A stretch of 64,000 nt of DNA, taken from NCBI RefSeq assembly GCF_003864255.1, contig NZ_QWEZ01000002.1, positions 496,001 to 560,000 on the forward strand, written 5' to 3'. Below are positions 7,158-15,439 of this stretch, piece by piece. Position 1 is the first letter of the stretch. Every line of letters begins with the position of its first letter. The notes under the pieces are model-generated. The model did no database searches. It was not told the DNA's origin and saw nothing but the letters and a program-made list of their open reading frames with translations. The DNA comes from Aestuariirhabdus litorea (GTDB lineage Bacteria > Pseudomonadota > Gammaproteobacteria > Pseudomonadales > Aestuariirhabdaceae). The translations under genes and the position numbers were made by a program.

Positions 7158-7616
7158 TTAGCGGTTATGGGTGCGTTGCCAGGCCTGGTAGCCCTCGTCG
7201 GGCCATAGGCTCTGAAACCAGGCGATAATTGATTCCACCTGCTCCTCGTCTAGGGTTTGACGCCAGGCGGGCATACGACCGTTGGTGCCGTTAAGGATCA
7301 TCTCCTTGAGTATCGGCAGTGGGTGGTGCCAGGCGTGGGCACTGCCATTGAGTGGGGGGGGAGGATAGAAGCCCTGGGCGTCGGGGCGGGTCCAGGCGGG
7401 GGTGGCTTCGGCCCGCACTCCGTGACAGCTGGCGCAGTGGCGGGCATAAAGTACAGCCCCTTCGTCCACCTGCTGTTGGCTGTACCAGCGACCGGTACGG
7501 CTGTCCTCATGCAGTGGGTCAAACTCGAGAACAGTGGCGAGGATCAGGCTGCCCGCCATTAACCCCAGCAGCACCAGCCAGAGGCGATTGGTACGGAAGC
7601 CGGGTTGGGCGGACAT
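7158..7616 (-). CDS. Membrane-anchored monohaem c-type cytochrome
   Basis: 152 residues. One N-terminal membrane helix (~11-28), not followed by a clear cleavage site, anchors a periplasmic domain with a single haem motif CASCH near residue 61. The likely distal methionine is in the segment NGRMPAWRQ (~ residue 118). The fold matches small class I cytochromes (helix DEEQVESIIAWFQSLW at the end). The ATG directly abuts the TAG of the preceding cytochrome gene (7617-7619), which indicates translational coupling. It probably passes electrons in the periplasm; donor and acceptor are unknown. It forms a set with two other cytochrome genes and the Cus pump. Confidence 0.88.
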   Translation of the reverse strand: MSAQPGFRTNRLWLVLLGLMAGSLILATVLEFDPLHEDSRTGRWYSQQQVDEGAVLYARHCASCHGVRAEATPAWTRPDAQGFYPPPPLNGSAHAWHHPLPILKEMILNGTNGRMPAWRQTLDEEQVESIIAWFQSLWPDEGYQAWQRTHNR

Positions 7617-8006
7617 CTACTGAATACCCGCGCGGTGCTGGTGTTTGCGTACGTAGGCAACGATGTGCGCCGCGTCTTTTGGCGTGACCTCTGGCACGGG
7701 CTCCATGTCGCCAAACTGCCAGTGGTGAGCCTGGGTGCCAAATTTAATCGCGCGGTAGAACGCAAGATCGCTGTGGTGTCCCGGTTTGTAGTAGTCATGC
7801 AGCAAGGGGGGGCCTTTGAGGTCGACACCCTGCAACTGCCTGCCGTGGCACTGAGAGCAGTATTGCTGGTAGAGCCCGCGGCCACTGTCAGCTGAGGCGA
7901 CAAAATCGGTGGGTGGAAGTCCCTGCCCTGCCAGTCGCTCCTCTTCGTTGGGAAAGCTGCAGCCCCCCAGAATCAGGACGGTGATGAGTAGCCATACGGG
8001 CTTCAT
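7617..8006 (-). CDS. Lipoprotein monohaem c-type cytochrome
   Basis: 129 residues from ATG 8006, chosen because CAGGAG stands seven to eight bases upstream and the signal sequence then starts correctly. The leader MKPVWLLITVLILGGC ends in a lipobox, so the mature protein is lipid-anchored. The haem motif is CSQCH. The likely axial methionine lies in FGDMEPVPEV, and a C-terminal helix (DAAHIVAYVRKHQ) is typical of cytochrome c. It is the second of three consecutive cytochrome genes downstream of cusCBA and is joined end-to-start to the third. Confidence 0.88.
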   Translation of the reverse strand: MKPVWLLITVLILGGCSFPNEEERLAGQGLPPTDFVASADSGRGLYQQYCSQCHGRQLQGVDLKGPPLLHDYYKPGHHSDLAFYRAIKFGTQAHHWQFGDMEPVPEVTPKDAAHIVAYVRKHQHRAGIQ

Positions 8007-8080
8007 TGAAAAACTCCTGTATCTGGAATCGCTCATGGCGAGGTTATTTTAGATGCCACAACAAGCCGGTCGATGCGCCA

Positions 8081-8728
8081 TCAGTGGTGACCATCATGGG
8101 CATCACCCTGCATGGTATGTGGGGCGGAGAAACTGCCATGAAACGCTTGATGAATATAGGTCAGAACGCTCCATCGCTCCGCTTCGCTGAGCACTTCTTT
8201 GAAGGAGGGCATGGCTGAGTCAGCGGATGCAAAGGGCTCCACCAGGCCGCCTTCGGAGACGCGCCAGAACAGGTACTGGTCACCCTCACCGGGTGCGGTA
8301 TGAAAATGGTTGGTGAGGTCGGCAGGCGGATGTTTAAGGCTTTTTGCGAGGGGGCCGTTCCCCTTGCCGTCGAAGCCGTGGCACGACAGGCAATTATCGC
8401 GGTAGAGCACCATGCCCTGTTTCGCGATCGCAAAGCTACTCCACTGGCTGAACACTTTGTCACTGTATGCTGTCGGAGGCTCGACCCAGAAATCATGCAT
8501 ATGACCGCCCGCACCATGATCCATAGCTTCCATCGACATGGAGGATGAATCGACGTTGTCCAGCTTCATGCCATCCATGCTCATATCGTCCATGCTCAAG
8601 CCCTCCATCGAGAGTTCAGAAGAGACTTTATCGTCACCGTGACCACCGTGGTGATTACCGCTGGCTAAAGAGCCTGTGGAGGCCAGCAACAGAGTTGCCG
8701 CCAGCATTGTTAGAGAGTTAGAAATCAT
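8081..8728 (-). CDS. Periplasmic c-type cytochrome with methionine-rich metal-binding-like segment
   Basis: 215 residues, preceded by AGGAGG. The signal peptide (~1-23, ending LASG) is followed by a His/Met/Asp-rich stretch. After HHGGHGDDK comes a methionine-rich module of MS[MT]D/E-type units (LSMEG LSMDD MSMDG), then a cytochrome c domain with CLSCH near residue 115, likely axial Met in DSAMPSF, and a His-rich C-terminus (DAHDGHH). Met- and His-rich segments of this sort bind Cu(I)/Ag(I) and Cu(II) in known proteins. The same module appears in the CusB adaptor of this operon, and the two agree at both protein and DNA level (8567-8618 against 12658-12709). This ties the cytochrome to copper handling rather than general respiration. 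Confidence 0.87.
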   Translation of the reverse strand: MISNSLTMLAATLLLASTGSLASGNHHGGHGDDKVSSELSMEGLSMDDMSMDGMKLDNVDSSSMSMEAMDHGAGGHMHDFWVEPPTAYSDKVFSQWSSFAIAKQGMVLYRDNCLSCHGFDGKGNGPLAKSLKHPPADLTNHFHTAPGEGDQYLFWRVSEGGLVEPFASADSAMPSFKEVLSEAERWSVLTYIHQAFHGSFSAPHTMQGDAHDGHH

Positions 8729-8787
8729 TTTTCCTCCTGCTAGGAGGCCACGGATTGTGGTCCGTGGCCGGTTGATGGGTCGGTGGG

Positions 8788-9228
8788 TTACTGGTAGTTG
8801 ACGCCGCCGAAGTGCTTTTTGCCGTCGGCAGTCATAAACAGCACCATCAACTGGTGCTTACTACCGGGCTTGAGGTCATAGCCGGTGACGTACCAGTCAC
8901 CCACTTTCTGTAGGGGTTTGCTCTGGTCCTTGCCATCCGGGAACACCACCTTGGAGTTGGCGCGAATGTTTCCCAGCGATTTACCCTGGGATTCGACCTT
9001 GATCATCAGGTTGTGGCTGCCGCCATACTGCATTCCCTGGTTAGCGGCCATCACGTGGAAGCTGACGCTGTAGCCATCGATATCTCGTTTCTCCAGGAAC
9101 ATCTTGCTGGCACTGCTGCCATGGCCCATAGCGGCGTGGCCGTTGTCCTGCGCGGCATTTGCATAAATTGGGCTGGTCAGTGCCAGGGTAGTCAGGCTGG
9201 TAGCCAGGAACAGTTGGGTGAGTTTCAT
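8788..9228 (-). CDS. Small secreted protein of the copper operon, function unknown
   Basis: 146 residues from ATG 9228, which has AAGGAG seven bases upstream; the frame extends further to 9297 without support. A clear signal peptide (~1-24, ending YANA) is followed by NGHAAMGHG and a beta-rich domain (SVSFHVMAANQGMQYGGSH, HNLMIKVESQGKSLG, LKPGSKHQLMVLFMTADG). The build resembles YtkA/FixH-like periplasmic domains found beside metal efflux systems, but I am not certain of the family. His and Met residues in the mature N-terminus would suit a copper ligand. It lies between cusA and the first cytochrome gene with short gaps on both sides. Confidence 0.75.
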   Translation of the reverse strand: MKLTQLFLATSLTTLALTSPIYANAAQDNGHAAMGHGSSASKMFLEKRDIDGYSVSFHVMAANQGMQYGGSHNLMIKVESQGKSLGNIRANSKVVFPDGKDQSKPLQKVGDWYVTGYDLKPGSKHQLMVLFMTADGKKHFGGVNYQ

Positions 9229-9293
9229 TTTGATCTCCTTGGGAGTAAGAGGGAGTAAGCCTCCCGTCTGTTTAGCGAGTTGGAAAGTACGTT

Positions 9294-12200
9294 TCATGGC
9301 GTTGTGTCGGTGTGGCCTTCAGCCGCCTCCTGAATGGGGTCGTGGGCCTTACGGCGGCGCTCTTTCAGTTGCAGCACCAGTCCATAGATCACCGGTAGTA
9401 CGACCAGGCAGAGCAGGGTGACGCTGATCATGCCGCCGATCATGGGGGCAGCGATGCGCTGCATCACGCCTGAGCCTGAGCCTGAGCTCCACATAATGGG
9501 CAGCAAGCCGGCGATTACGGTGACGGAGGTCATGGCGATGGGGCGTACCCGCTCCGACGTGCCCTCCAGCACAGCACGGCGCAGCTCGCCGCTGGTAAGG
9601 CGGGCACCTGTAGCGCCCTTGCTACGACGCTTCGCTGCCACAGCCTGGTCAATAAAGGTGAGTACCAGCACGCCAATTTCCGCGGCTACCCCTGCCAGGG
9701 CAATAAAGCCGACTGCGACAGCGACCGACAGGTTGAAACCGAGCCAGTGCACCAGCCAGATTCCCCCCACCAGGCCGAAGGGGATCGACAGCATTACCAC
9801 CAGAGGTGCACTGATATTGCGGAAGTTGAGGTAGAGCAGCAGGAAGATAATCATCAGGGTGGCCGGGATGACGATCTTGAGACGCTCGGCGGCTCGCTCC
9901 ATATATTCATACTGGCCCGACCAGCTGATGGTATAACCGGGCGGCACGGTCACCTGCTCGGATACCGCTTTTTTGGCCTCACGTACATAGCCGCCAATGT
10001 CAGAGACGTAGATATCCACATAGATCCAAGAGGAGAGACGAGCATCCTCGCTCTTGATGCCAGGCGGCCCCCGGCGTAGCTCCAGCTCGGCCAGCTGCGT
10101 CAATGGAATCTGGGCACCACCTGGGGTGGGGACCAGCACCCGTTTGAGCGAGTCAATATCGTCACGTAACTCACGCGGGTAGCGGATATTAACCGGATAG
10201 CGCTCGAGCCCTTCCACCGTACGCGTCACATTCATGCCACCGATGGCGGTCTGAATCACCTCCTGTACCTCCCCGGTGGTGAGTCCATAACGCGCCGCTT
10301 CTGTACGGTTTATGGTGAAGTCCAGGTAATAGCCACCCACGGCACGGTCGCCAAAGGCGGTCAGGGTGCCAGATACCCCACGAACCACCTGTTCGATCTC
10401 CAGTACCATCTCCTCCAGTTTGGCGAGGCTGGGGCCGCTGACCTTGATCCCCACTGGGGTTTTGATACCGGTCGAGAGCATATCGATACGGGTTTTGATG
10501 GGCATGGTCCAGGCGTTGGCAAGCCCCGGGAACTTGATGGCCTGGTCCATCTCGTTCATCAGCTCCTGGGTCGTCTTGTCGGGGTCAGGCCACAGCTCCT
10601 TGGGTTTGAGCTTGATGGTGGTTTCCAGCATGCTCAGTGGCGCGGGGTCCGTGGCGGTATCGGCTCTACCCGCTTTGCCGAAGACCCGTTCCACCTCAGG
10701 GAAGCTGGCGAGGATCTTGTCGGTTTGTTGGAGCAGCTCCTTGACCTTGGTGATGGAGACCCCGGGGTAGGTGGTGGGCATATACAAGATATCCCCCTCA
10801 TCCAGTGGAGGCATAAATTCGGTACCCAGTTTGCTGATGGGATAAGCGGTAACCACAACCACCAGGCTCGCCAACACGATCGTGATCCAGCGCCAGCGGA
10901 TGGCGGCACCCAGCAGGGGAGCATGCAGCCAGTGCAAAACACGGTTTACCGGATTGCGGGATTCGGGCAGGATTTTTCCGCGGATCAGGTATCCCATCAA
11001 AACAGGAATCAGGGTGACCGATAGAATAGCAGCCGCGGCCATGGCGTAGGTTTTGGTGAATGCCAGCGGGCCGAACATCCGGCCCTCCTGTGCCTGCAGG
11101 GTAAACACCGGCAGGAAGGAGACGGTAATGATCAGCAATGAGAAGAACAGGGCGGGCCCTACCTCCCGGGCCGAATCGGCAATGGTCATCCAGCGCTCGT
11201 TGTCGGTGAGCTCTCGCTGCAAGCGATCATGGGCCTGTTCGAGGTGCTTGTGGGCATTCTCGATCATGACGATGGCCCCATCGACCATGGCCCCTATGGC
11301 GATCGCGATTCCCCCTAACGACATGATGTTGGCGTTGATCCCCTGCCACTGCATCACCATAAACGCCATCAGGATACCGATGGGCAAGGTGATGATAGCC
11401 ACCAGTGCCGAACGCACATGCAGCAGGAAGAGGATGCAGACGATGGAGACCACGATGGACTCTTCAATCAACTTGAAGCTGAGGTTATCGACGGCGCGCT
11501 GGATCAGGTCACCGCGATCGTAGACCGGAATGATCTCGACCCCTTCGGGGAGACCGGGCTTGAGTTGCTCGAGTTTCTCCTTGACCGCTTTGATGGTGGC
11601 CTGTGCATTTTCGCCGTAGCGCATGACGATGATGCCGCCAACGGTTTCTCCCTCGCCATCCAGTTCAGCAACGCCTCGCCGTAGCTCGGGTCCCAGTTGC
11701 ACATGGGCAATATCTTTCAGCCGCAGGGGTGTTCCCTCCGGCGTACTGCCAAGCGGAATCTCTTCCAAGTCGGAGAGGGTACGAATATAGCCCAGGCCAC
11801 GCACCATGTACTCGGTTTCGGCCATCTCCACCAGGCGCCCACCGACGTCGTTGTTGGAGCGCTTGATGGCGGCTTTTACCCGCGATAGCGGGACTTTATA
11901 ACGCGCCATCAGGTGCGGGTCGACCTCCACCTGATACTGCTTTATGTGGCCTCCAATGCTGGCCACCTCCGATACACCGGGCACGGTTTGCAACTGGTAA
12001 CGCAGGTACCAGTCCTGAATCGAGCGCAGCTCAGACAGGTCGTGACGGCCACTGCGATCGACCAGCGCGTACTCGTAGACCCAGCCGACGCCAGTGGCGT
12101 CCGGTCCGAGCACGGGCTGGACGGTGTCGGGCAGGCGGCTGGCAGCGTAGTTGAGCTGCTCAAGCACCCGCGAGCGGGCCCAGTACATGTCGGTACCGTC

Positions 12201-12494
12201 TTCGAAGATGATGTACACAAAGGAGTAACCAAAAAAGGAGTAACCCCGTACCACTTTGGCATAGGGAACCCCTAGCATGGCTGTGGTAAGGGGGTAGGTG
12301 ACCTGGTCCTCCACCACCTGTGGTGCCTGCCCCGGGAACTCAGTAAATACGATAACCTGCACATCCGAAAGATCTGGGATGGCGTCGAGGGGGGTCTTCT
12401 TGACCGCCCAGATCCCGGCGGCGATCAGCAGCGCAGTGGCGATCAACACCAGAAAGCGGTTGCGCAGTGAGCCGTTGATAACACCATTAATCAT
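9294..12494 (-). CDS. cusA: Heavy-metal efflux RND pump, inner-membrane subunit (CusA/CzcA family)
   Basis: 1066 residues, the usual length for the family. It has the twelve-helix RND plan with two large periplasmic loops. Recognisable parts are the N-terminus (ALLIAAGIWAVKKTPLDAIPDL), the motif DGAIVMIENAHKHLE in the fourth-helix region that is conserved in metal RND pumps, the central MPPLDEGDILYMPTTYPG segment, and the C-terminal MTSVTVIAGLLPIMWSSG. Methionines lie in the periplasmic cleft region, as in Cu(I)/Ag(I) exporters, and the neighbours support copper/silver over zinc/cobalt. The pump uses the proton gradient to export metal through CusB and CusC. Its ATG overlaps the cusB stop by eight bases. 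Confidence 0.95.
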   Translation of the reverse strand: MINGVINGSLRNRFLVLIATALLIAAGIWAVKKTPLDAIPDLSDVQVIVFTEFPGQAPQVVEDQVTYPLTTAMLGVPYAKVVRGYSFFGYSFVYIIFEDGTDMYWARSRVLEQLNYAASRLPDTVQPVLGPDATGVGWVYEYALVDRSGRHDLSELRSIQDWYLRYQLQTVPGVSEVASIGGHIKQYQVEVDPHLMARYKVPLSRVKAAIKRSNNDVGGRLVEMAETEYMVRGLGYIRTLSDLEEIPLGSTPEGTPLRLKDIAHVQLGPELRRGVAELDGEGETVGGIIVMRYGENAQATIKAVKEKLEQLKPGLPEGVEIIPVYDRGDLIQRAVDNLSFKLIEESIVVSIVCILFLLHVRSALVAIITLPIGILMAFMVMQWQGINANIMSLGGIAIAIGAMVDGAIVMIENAHKHLEQAHDRLQRELTDNERWMTIADSAREVGPALFFSLLIITVSFLPVFTLQAQEGRMFGPLAFTKTYAMAAAAILSVTLIPVLMGYLIRGKILPESRNPVNRVLHWLHAPLLGAAIRWRWITIVLASLVVVVTAYPISKLGTEFMPPLDEGDILYMPTTYPGVSITKVKELLQQTDKILASFPEVERVFGKAGRADTATDPAPLSMLETTIKLKPKELWPDPDKTTQELMNEMDQAIKFPGLANAWTMPIKTRIDMLSTGIKTPVGIKVSGPSLAKLEEMVLEIEQVVRGVSGTLTAFGDRAVGGYYLDFTINRTEAARYGLTTGEVQEVIQTAIGGMNVTRTVEGLERYPVNIRYPRELRDDIDSLKRVLVPTPGGAQIPLTQLAELELRRGPPGIKSEDARLSSWIYVDIYVSDIGGYVREAKKAVSEQVTVPPGYTISWSGQYEYMERAAERLKIVIPATLMIIFLLLYLNFRNISAPLVVMLSIPFGLVGGIWLVHWLGFNLSVAVAVGFIALAGVAAEIGVLVLTFIDQAVAAKRRSKGATGARLTSGELRRAVLEGTSERVRPIAMTSVTVIAGLLPIMWSSGSGSGVMQRIAAPMIGGMISVTLLCLVVLPVIYGLVLQLKERRRKAHDPIQEAAEGHTDTTP

Positions 12495-14145
12495 GTTGCA
12501 TCACTCCGGCATCTTTCGTTGCATCAGGCTCCATGCTCATGCCTTCCATGCTCATGTCGTCGGTACTCATGCCTTCCATGCTCATGTCGTCGGTACTCAT
12601 GCCTTCCGTGCTCATACCGTCCATGCTCATGTCGTCGGTACTCATGCCTTCCATGCTCATACCGTCCATGCTCATGTCGTCCATCGACAGCCCACCCATG
12701 GAGAGTTCATCCGAGGAGGTGGCCTCCTCCGGAGTCGATGCACCCACATTTTTCGAAGCCTCCATCATCTTGGCCGTTGCTTCGCGCAGTTTGGACTCGG
12801 AATCGATCAGGAACAGCGCGGAGCTGACCACGGTCTCACCGGCTTTAAGCCCGGAGGTGATCTCAACCCAGCCATCGCTGCTGTAGCCCAGCTCAACCTG
12901 ACGGGGTTCGAACTTGCCTTCGCCGCGCACTACAAATACCTGCTCCCGGGAGCCGGAGCGGACAATGGCATTACTCGGCACGACCAGGGCTTGCTTACGG
13001 GTGCTGGCGCCAATCGTGACACTGGCAAACATATCGGGCTTGAGCAGCCCCTGGGGGTTATCGAACTCCAGCCGTACCTTTACGGTTCGAGTCGATGCTT
13101 CAGCGTAGGGGTAGATATAGGCGACGGTACCGGTGAAGCTATGATTGCCCAAGCCGGTGATCTCCATGGATCCTGAATCCCCGACCGAAATCCAGGGCAG
13201 TTCATACTCGTACACATCGGCCAGTAGCCACACCTTGCTCAGGTCGGCGAGCATATACATTTCTGTGCTGGGTTTGATGTACTGGCCTTCCCGGGCACCG
13301 ATGTCCAGAACCACTCCATCGAACGGAGATTCGATCGCTACTGCACGCTGTACCTGACGGCTCTGGCGCAGTTTGGCAATCTCATGGGGTGGCATATCCA
13401 GCAAGCGAAGGCGCTGTTCGGAGCTCGAGACCATCTCTTCGGCACCGCGGCGGATATCCTCAAAGGGGCTGTCCGCCAGAGCGTTCAGGTTATCCAGTGC
13501 CAGCAGGTACTCCTGTTGGCTAGTGACCAACTGGGGAGAGTATAGGCTAAGTAGGTCATCACCTTTGCGAACGGCGTTTCCGATGCGGGAGACCCACTGT
13601 TTCTCGACCCAGCCTTCGGTGCGTGGGTGCAGCCGCGACATGCGACTCTCATCGACGGTGATGCGACCACTGGCGCGGACGCTGCGCACCAGATCTCTCT
13701 GCTCTACTTTAACGGTGCGAACGCCGATATTCTGTACCATGACCGGGTCGATCTTGACGGTGCCGGTGGGCTCATCGTTACCCCCCTCTTCATCGGCAAA
13801 AACCGGGATGTAATCCATGCCCATCTCATCCTGCGCCGGAACCGGTGAGGTAATGGCCGGGTTCATTGGATTACGATAAAAAAGCGGTTTTCTGTCGGCG
13901 GCGGGCTTTTCCGGATACACCGGGATGTAGTCCATGCCCATCTCATCCTTGGCGGGAACCGGGGAGGTAATGGCCGGATTCATTGGGTTGCGATAGAACA
14001 GCGGGCGCGGGCTATTGTCCGCGCTATCGTGCCCAGCCGTACCGGTCGCCGGTGGCACCAGCAGGTGCTGAAACTGGGCAGCCCCAATGCCGATACCCAC
14101 GCCAATCGCGAGCGCTATGCTTGCACCAAAAAGAGCCTTATTCAT
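12487..14145 (-). CDS. cusB: CusB-type periplasmic adaptor with duplicated metal-binding domain and Met-rich tail
   Basis: 552 residues, longer than E. coli CusB (~407). After an N-terminal membrane/signal segment come two copies of a small heavy-metal-binding domain (FYRNPMNP ... DEMGMDYIPV), 39 codons apart. The membrane-fusion core follows, with a barrel-sandwich hybrid (SPFDGVVLDIGAREGQYI), helical hairpin and beta-barrel (GSREQVFVVRG). The C-terminus (from ~ residue 480) is twelve five-residue units of the form MS[MT][DE][DG], ending MQHD. Methionine clusters of this kind bind Cu(I)/Ag(I). The protein links CusA to CusC and in E. coli also takes metal from the chaperone CusF. No cusF gene is seen here, and the extra Met-rich parts may substitute for it (inference). 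Confidence 0.95.
   Translation of the reverse strand: MNKALFGASIALAIGVGIGIGAAQFQHLLVPPATGTAGHDSADNSPRPLFYRNPMNPAITSPVPAKDEMGMDYIPVYPEKPAADRKPLFYRNPMNPAITSPVPAQDEMGMDYIPVFADEEGGNDEPTGTVKIDPVMVQNIGVRTVKVEQRDLVRSVRASGRITVDESRMSRLHPRTEGWVEKQWVSRIGNAVRKGDDLLSLYSPQLVTSQQEYLLALDNLNALADSPFEDIRRGAEEMVSSSEQRLRLLDMPPHEIAKLRQSRQVQRAVAIESPFDGVVLDIGAREGQYIKPSTEMYMLADLSKVWLLADVYEYELPWISVGDSGSMEITGLGNHSFTGTVAYIYPYAEASTRTVKVRLEFDNPQGLLKPDMFASVTIGASTRKQALVVPSNAIVRSGSREQVFVVRGEGKFEPRQVELGYSSDGWVEITSGLKAGETVVSSALFLIDSESKLREATAKMMEASKNVGASTPEEATSSDELSMGGLSMDDMSMDGMSMEGMSTDDMSMDGMSTEGMSTDDMSMEGMSTDDMSMEGMSMEPDATKDAGVMQHD
12526..12705 (-). repeat. Twelve tandem 15-bp units encoding the Met-rich tail of CusB
   Basis: The unit encodes M-S-[M/T]-[D/E]-[D/G], starting LSMGG, LSMDD, MSMDG, MSMEG and ending MSMEG, MSMEP. 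Neighbouring units differ at only a few bases, so the array can change length by slippage or recombination without shifting the frame. A shorter degenerate version lies in the cytochrome gene around 8545-8618. Confidence 0.9.
13804..14004 (-). repeat. Tandem duplication of an 84-bp metal-binding-domain segment in cusB
   Basis: Bases 13804-13887 and 13921-14004 align without gaps and differ at roughly a dozen positions by eye. Each copy encodes a segment running from FYRNPMNP to MGMDYIPV. The offset is 117 bases, or 39 codons. Both copies keep the methionines and the aspartate/glutamate pair, so both are probably functional. Confidence 0.85.
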
Positions 14146-15439
14146 GGGGGCGTTCTCCGTTTTCGGGGATTAGTTGAGAGGCTCCGCCGGTGGCGGCATA
14201 GAGAGTTGCCAGCGCCTGCTGGCCTTCGCTAAGGGTTTTCCAATACTGCACCTGCACACGGTTTGCCATCAGTTGGGCCTGAATCAGGGCAGAGAAATCC
14301 ACCTTGTTCACCTGATATCCGGAGAGCATCGAGGCCACCGTTTGCTGGGACTGGGGGATGATCCCTCTGAGCAGCAGTAGCTGCTGCTCCTGCGCCCGCT
14401 GGTAGTCGGACGCGGCTTGAACTACCTCGGAACGGGTGTTGAGCTGGGTGACATAGAGCGCTTCCTGCCGGCTGATCAGCTCCTGGCCTCGCTGGCTGAT
14501 CGCCTTGTGCTGTTTGGAGCCGGCGTAGATCGGTAGCTTGATACCGATGTTAAAGGATAAAAAATCGGCCCGGTCAGCCCCGTTGGGGGCGTCCTGTCGA
14601 TAACCGTAGGCACCCCCCAGGCTGATATCGGGTCTTAAAGCGACTTCGGCTTGGGCCCGACGATCAGCAGCGGCCTCAACCAGCTTTTGCTGTTGGCGAA
14701 TGGCCGGACGTTGCTCAAGAGCCGTCTCAATGAGCTGAGAGAGGGGAGGGAGGGCGACCGTGACCGGCTGTTGGTCAAGATCCACGCCAATGGTGGCTTC
14801 CGCAGCCTGGGCAAGCAGGGCATTCAGTTGAGCCGAGAGGATTCGTCGCTGGTTTTGCAGTGACAGTTGCAGGGAGAGCTGGTTGGAGAGCTCCAGTTGC
14901 GCTTGCAAGGTGTCCTGTTGCAGCCCCTGCCCAACCCGGTAACGGCTCTGGGCAATACGGTTGAACTCGCGCAACCGCAGCAAGTTTTCATCGGTGACCG
15001 CGAGTGAGCGCTCAACAAAATAAAGTCCCCACCAGGTGCGGCTAACGTCGCGCCGCAGCATGTTTCGAGCCTCGTCGAGCTCTGCAGCCGTTGCTCTCGC
15101 TTGGTGCTGGGCTGCGGACGAAGCGAGCTCACGGGCTTTCAGCCAGGGGAGCGCCTGGCTAAAAGAGACCTGCATCTGCGTCATGGGCTCCTGGTCGAGG
15201 TCAAAGGTATCGGTCGGGACATTCAGCATACCCAGCGTGAGGGTGGGGTCTGGCAGTGCGCCAACCTGGTCGGGCACCTCAAGCGCGGCCCGATAGCGGG
15301 CCTCTATCTCGCTCAGTCTGGGGCTCATTTCCAGTGCGCGTTGTAGCGCCTGATCGAGGGTCAAGTCCTGGGCGTAGGCTGGGGAGAGGGAGGATCCCAA
15401 AAGCCCTAGCGCCAGCACCAGGCGGGGTAATACTCGCAT
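14138..15439 (-). CDS. cusC: TolC-family outer-membrane channel of the Cus system
   Basis: 433 residues with a signal peptide (~1-23, ending AYAQ). Two repeats of the outer-membrane efflux protein family are visible, the first with MSPRLSEIEARYRAALE and AARATAAELDEARN-type coiled-coil helices, the second with ALEQRPAIRQQQKLVEAAADRRAQAE and LSGYQVNKVDFSALIQAQ. It would form the trimeric outer-membrane duct for metal export. The stop codon overlaps the cusB start by eight bases, and cusC-cusB-cusA is the usual order of such operons. Confidence 0.92.
   Translation of the reverse strand: MRVLPRLVLALGLLGSSLSPAYAQDLTLDQALQRALEMSPRLSEIEARYRAALEVPDQVGALPDPTLTLGMLNVPTDTFDLDQEPMTQMQVSFSQALPWLKARELASSAAQHQARATAAELDEARNMLRRDVSRTWWGLYFVERSLAVTDENLLRLREFNRIAQSRYRVGQGLQQDTLQAQLELSNQLSLQLSLQNQRRILSAQLNALLAQAAEATIGVDLDQQPVTVALPPLSQLIETALEQRPAIRQQQKLVEAAADRRAQAEVALRPDISLGGAYGYRQDAPNGADRADFLSFNIGIKLPIYAGSKQHKAISQRGQELISRQEALYVTQLNTRSEVVQAASDYQRAQEQQLLLLRGIIPQSQQTVASMLSGYQVNKVDFSALIQAQLMANRVQVQYWKTLSEGQQALATLYAATGGASQLIPENGERPHE

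Follow-up and report, generated by a model that had tools for sequence, protein, structure and literature searches.

Methionine-rich segments with a shared grammar in two proteins from a copper-efflux gene cluster, a CusB-like adaptor and a c-type cytochrome

The cus-cytochrome gene cluster

The window analyzed here, a 64,000-nucleotide stretch of the Aestuariirhabdus litorea genome (contig NZ_QWEZ01000002.1, positions 496,001 to 560,000), carries on its minus strand, at window positions 7158-15439, a gene cluster in the order cusC, cusB, cusA, a CrdA-like gene, and the genes for three cytochromes of 215, 139, and 152 aa; all features described below lie on this strand and are given in window coordinates. 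The cusC-cusB-cusA run opens with a CusC/TolC-like outer-membrane factor (14138..15439; Pfam OEP, 9.9e-42), followed by a CusB-like periplasmic adaptor of 552 aa (12487..14145; HlyD_D23, 1.8e-77) and a CusA heavy-metal RND permease (9294..12494) that scores 1274 bits with the CusA/CzcA model TIGR00914, against a cut-off of 701. In an alignment to PDB CusA, the methionines in the permease motifs GDILYMP, APLSMLE, and TRIDML fall on M573, M623, and M672, the methionine triad of E. coli CusA. Among the genes scanned, no cusF was recognized.

Compared with the E. coli CusCBA/CusCFBA system (CusB and CusA; PDB 3ne5, 3k07), CusA aligns end to end with the triad residues kept, and in the window cluster, cusA is followed by additional genes, for the CrdA-like protein and a c-type cytochrome. 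The adaptor has a barrel-sandwich domain and aligns with E. coli CusB (3h94/3ne5; E 1.1e-49, residues 80-463), which places it among the CusB-type HME-RND adaptors; it scores 211 bits with the NCBIfam CusB subfamily model PRK09783, below the cut-off of 390, so that "CusB" here denotes a CusB-like protein outside the E. coli CusB subfamily model. The alignment spans residues 35-401 of the E. coli protein and takes in the metal-site segment near its N-terminus; the window protein differs by a duplication of this segment and by an additional Met-pentad tail of about 87 residues. The duplicated segment consists of two copies of NPMNPAITSPVPA(K/Q)DEMGMDYIPV (13793-13887 and 13910-14004; 85% over 95 nt, spacing 117), single in E. 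coli CusB; a part known to bind metal has here been duplicated in tandem.

The C-terminal tail (about residues 466-552; 12490..12750) starts at the point where the E. coli protein terminates (query residue 463 aligns with residue 401 in a PDB chain of 407 residues) and contains five overlapping MxMxxM motifs. Within it, TRF delineates a tandem array of 15-bp units with a 45-bp period and 88% matches (12530..12684), at the N-terminal edge of which lie residues 480-496, ELSMGGLSMDDMSMDGM (12658..12708, from the codon table).

Between cusA and the first cytochrome gene, a CrdA-like/YtkA-like predicted beta-sandwich protein of 169 aa is encoded (8788..9297). Its AlphaFold model has a pLDDT mostly above 90 over residues 67-169 and low confidence over the His/Met-bearing N-terminus. 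The best PDB matches obtained with Foldseek are the Helicobacter pylori CrdA structures 9ll2 and 9ll4 (E 4e-4 and 8e-4), and the match to 9ll2_A (TM 0.73 by target and 0.48 by query, 12% identity) is to be read as a likeness of fold only. A PDB profile search with the CrdA-like family gave no match, and the protein itself has no Pfam match, with weak matches to Pfam YtkA in 10 of 30 family members. H. pylori CrdA is encoded together with the CrdB-CzcB-CzcA efflux proteins (PMC9182242). More than 30 loci have a homologue of the window protein downstream of cusB(A), and the N-termini of these homologues are rich in His and Met, which makes flexible Met/His-rich ends a general habit of the periplasmic proteins of this cluster, a pattern that fits parallel acquisition.

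The 215-aa protein (8081..8728) is a small mono-haem c-type cytochrome, with Pfam matches to Cytochrome_CBB3 (1.9e-10) and Cytochrom_C (3.3e-9), both over residues 102-194, and a CXXCH haem-binding motif (CLSCH) at residues 113-117. A signal-peptide-like start is followed by a His/Met-rich segment (about residues 24-80) and then by the haem domain. This segment contains the Met-rich module, residues 38-54, ELSMEGLSMDDMSMDGM (8567..8617, from the codon table), with one MxMxxM (MSMDGM), and a second such motif, MSMEAM, at residues 64-69 (8522..8539). Judging from its composition, the module is probably disordered; the AlphaFold model of the cytochrome, built from a three-row alignment, has a pLDDT of 41. 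The two further small c-type cytochromes, of 139 and 152 aa, are encoded at 7158-8036. One or both of these have homologues close to the 215-aa cytochrome in genomes that are unrelated (L163-L168, L170, L194, L195), which suggests that the three-cytochrome set is co-inherited.

A close protein match between the two segments

Both segments are present in the expected reading frames and can be aligned ungapped, as stated in a preliminary description of this DNA, although the nine mismatches in 52 bases reported there become 11 when counted. The Met run common to the two proteins is confirmed, with 16 of 17 residues identical between cytochrome residues 38-54 and CusB residues 480-496; the SS lead-in that the description also took to be shared is offset by one residue (SSELS versus SSDELS) and lies partly outside the ungapped match. 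A BLASTP comparison of the two proteins recovers the matched stretch (E 5e-9) and continues at lower identity through the repeats. The close ungapped match ends sharply on both sides at 17 residues, with dissimilar flanks, and a search of the genome for other copies of the module matched only the cytochrome and CusB segments.

Shuffles with the Met positions fixed gave a mean of 8.2 of 17 identical residues and never exceeded 14 in 20,000 trials, and even when residues were shuffled only within each pentad phase (mean 12.5 of 17), 16 identities were reached in just 0.4% of cases (P 0.004). Shared grammar alone does not fully explain the closeness of this pair at the protein level. The pair is a single case from a single genome, chosen as striking, and its closeness is a hint, short of proof, of either old conversion or convergence.

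No DNA-level trace of copying

Methionine has a single codon, and Met-rich peptides that agree must therefore share much of their DNA. Codon identity was accordingly assessed at the identical non-Met residues only, with the expectation drawn from local codon use. The same codon is used at 4 of these 11 residues, against 4.08 expected, and the base identity of 40/51 is that of peptides back-translated independently (39.6 +/- 2.5; P 0.52). The repeats of the CusB tail served as a positive control: at a distance of 15 residues, 13 of 17 codons are the same, against 6.3 expected. The best DNA register is shifted by five residues, where 43/51 bases and only 11/17 amino acids agree; over all registers, this corresponds to P = 0.125. 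Synonymous identity thus does not rise above the codon-usage expectation, as it would in recently copied DNA, and the similarity "at DNA level" amounts to what the likeness of the two peptides by itself would produce.

Were at least 80% of codons retained since a copying event, four or fewer shared codons out of 11 would have P of at most 0.002. Recent gene conversion or duplication between cusB and the cytochrome gene was considered as a candidate and is ruled out by the codon and back-translation tests; recent copying is excluded. For older events, the resolution of the test is lower: cusA synonymous sites are near saturation between the window genome and its nearest relatives (39-52% same codons versus 37% expected), and at this orthologue-level retention, four or fewer matches out of 11 have P of 0.28-0.42.

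The cytochrome module arose once, in a small cus-linked clade

At the search thresholds used, and counting the window genome, the cytochrome turned up in 2 of the 391 genomes searched within the order and in 17 of 369 within the class. The module is carried by five cytochromes from four genomes, namely, that of the window, two of Motiliproteus (L060 and L063), and a Neptunomonas MAG (L193 and L194), in the form of MDMGSMSMDNMDMSQMK and close variants; the class and order searches yielded no further module-bearing cytochromes. Across the orthologues, the module aligns in register, with M41, S45, M46, D47, M49, M51, M54, and K55 invariant. The five module-bearing cytochromes form one clade (support 97/95), and at all five loci the cytochrome gene directly follows cusA and the CrdA-like gene. 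Being in register, confined to one clade, and always located behind cusA, the module is an old feature of cus-linked cytochromes with a single origin. With one origin, its association with the cus cluster draws on a single evolutionary event.

The module is missing from the 12 other cytochrome relatives that were read, including the second cytochrome (a paralogue) of the L063 genome; these relatives have other linkers, mostly short and His-rich. Plasmid-borne relatives match in the haem domain only, at less than 60% identity, none covering more than 80% of the query. The Neptunomonas MAG (G423) encodes two cusA - CrdA-like - cytochrome clusters, with the Met module in both cytochromes. A literature search on Motiliproteus and copper found nothing relevant. 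Two genomes from the genus of the window genome (G001 and G002) both lack the cytochrome, and their best CusB matches are distant, so that the cluster may be a lineage-specific acquisition.

Pentad-periodic tails are widespread among CusB-like adaptors

We surveyed 80 CusB tails from related loci, in hosts that include Gammaproteobacteria, Zetaproteobacteria, Gallionella, and others. MxMxxM occurs in 56 of these tails, with 136 motifs in total versus 19.8 +/- 4.3 in shuffled sequences; Met-Met spacings of 5, 10, and 15 residues are enriched 3.0-, 2.1-, and 1.8-fold, respectively, and adjacent methionines are almost absent. Tail lengths and sequences vary widely among species, and most organisms with an MxMxxM-containing tail lack the 215-aa-type cytochrome. 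The CusB tail is more widespread than the cytochrome module and keeps changing through tandem duplication. In one locus (L032, genome G054), the tail contains many perfect EGMNH pentads, a His/Met form of the pentad array. In the literature searched, mostly non-subscription journals, no description of a pentad-periodic MxMxxM adaptor tail was found.

The recent tandem duplication within the CusB array and the wide variation of tail length and sequence are what would be expected if both segments were neutral, functionless repeat expansions that resemble each other by low-complexity chance. Nevertheless, the Met spacing is strongly non-random over 80 diverged tails, and the peptide grammar has been kept while synonymous sites were randomized, which makes this explanation scarcely credible.

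The same survey bears on the proposal that the segment was copied between the two genes. A module present in one of the proteins and absent from the other, the situation named in the preliminary description as counting against copying, is found in most genomes. With codons randomized, CusB tails widespread on their own, and a cytochrome module that is older and orthologous, the proposal is unsupported as far as recent copying is concerned.

An older event deserves separate consideration, in which an ancestral cytochrome module (like MDMGSMSMDNMDMSQM) was overwritten by ectopic conversion, with the 5' portion of the cusB tail as donor, the synonymous sites having since been randomized while selection kept both peptides. 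The window cytochrome module shares 16 of 17 residues with its own CusB tail and only 7, 7, 7, and 5 of 17 with the orthologous cytochromes, which agree among themselves at 9-14 of 17; in the other 394 cytochrome-tail comparisons, the value is at most 13/17. The L063 CusB tail, at 13/17, is the next best match of the window module, and GLSMD.MSMDGM is found in CusB tails and not in other cytochromes, both of which would make cusB the donor. The within-phase shuffle result points the same way, and given the near-saturation of synonymous sites, an old copy would look just like what is observed. Set against this are the lack of any DNA-level trace, the end of the ungapped likeness at 17 residues without flanks, and the prior presence of the module in the cytochrome, in register, for which copying is unneeded. 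Furthermore, the closeness to the adaptor of the same genome is absent in the four other cytochromes, for which the own CusB tail ranks 7th, 13th, 35th, and 36th of 79, being first only in the window genome. On balance, we consider such old copying unlikely, albeit a scenario to be taken seriously.

Separately maintained segments with a common grammar

The explanation that we favor, with a probability of roughly two in three, is that the two segments are separately maintained, flexible, Met-only Cu(I)-holding stretches in periplasmic proteins of one operon, kept alike by selection for a common grammar rather than by recent copying. Both proteins have an acidic Met-rich segment, presumably flexible, that follows the same five-residue rule, M-x-M-x-x, which generates overlapping MxMxxM sites. 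MxMxxM is a Met-only motif selective for Cu(I)/Ag(I), known from the Ctr1 N-terminus (PMC9117721), and in model sites, single Met sites bind weakly, such that Met-rich domains act as a weak, statistical, dynamic "Cu sponge" (PMC11840665). By analogy with these cases, the shared metal role proposed earlier for the two segments is likely, the same Met-only kind of motif being present in two proteins of one copper-efflux cluster, and both would hold Cu(I) weakly and dynamically. The tail extends the C-terminus beyond the membrane-proximal end of the adaptor; it is thus probably located near CusA, and there it could gather Cu(I) and raise its local concentration for the pump. The cytochrome module, placed after the signal peptide and ahead of the haem domain, may buffer Cu(I) or shield the haem and its electron partners from it, given that this haem protein would have to work in the same copper-stressed periplasm as the pump. 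It would have originated once, in the ancestor of the clade in which the cytochrome gene lies behind cusA and the CrdA-like gene.

Several known systems resemble parts of this arrangement. The Ctr1 N-terminus (PMC9117721) and the CueO Met-rich domain (PMC11840665) share the MxMxxM spacing and the Asp/Ser/Gly spacers between methionines, but in the window proteins the motif is concatenated, with a five-residue periodicity, and occurs in an adaptor of the RND type and in a c-type cytochrome. SilB of Cupriavidus metallidurans has a CusF-like C-terminal domain (Bersch et al. 2011, reviewed in PMC4446572), a metal-handling extension on the same end of the adaptor; that extension is a folded beta-barrel, whereas the window CusB has a repeat-built, low-complexity Met tail of pentad composition with no CusF match and no Pfam or PDB sequence match, and is thus not of the SilB type. 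The disordered His/Met-rich N-terminus of PcoB is needed for copper resistance and also stabilizes PcoA from the same operon (PMC12509749). It is likewise a flexible, poorly conserved copper-handling segment in an efflux-cluster protein, but differs in being mainly His-rich, belonging to an outer-membrane protein, and having been demonstrated by experiment (PMC12509749).

CusB and CusF exchange Cu(I) (PMC4446572), a precedent for hand-off between Met sites that, together with the location of both genes in one cluster, the gene order conserved in four genomes, and the near-identity of the peptides in the window genome, could speak for direct contact between the CusB tail and the cytochrome, with Cu(I)/Ag(I) passing between them and perhaps tying copper redox state to efflux. 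Such coupling appears improbable to us: in most genomes that have a tail of this kind, a cytochrome of this kind is missing, so the tail can do without it; two copies of one peptide would not be expected to bind each other; and in the other genomes, the sequences of tail and module show no co-variation. We place similarly little credence in a more elaborate scenario, in which an old conversion from cusB refitted the cytochrome with the Cu(I)-holding module of the adaptor, so that the two proteins would draw on a shared Cu(I) pool and the cytochrome would link periplasmic copper load to electron flow.

Near-identical low-complexity peptides in neighboring genes, then, need not imply copying, and the codon test parts shared grammar from shared DNA. 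The analysis also draws attention to the pentad-periodic MxMxxM tails of copper RND adaptors, which have received little notice and are present in most of the 80 related CusB proteins surveyed; in one small clade, the c-type cytochrome encoded behind cusA has a module that matches them. If the CusB tail holds Cu(I), it would be an unstructured counterpart of the CusF-like C-terminal domain of SilB.
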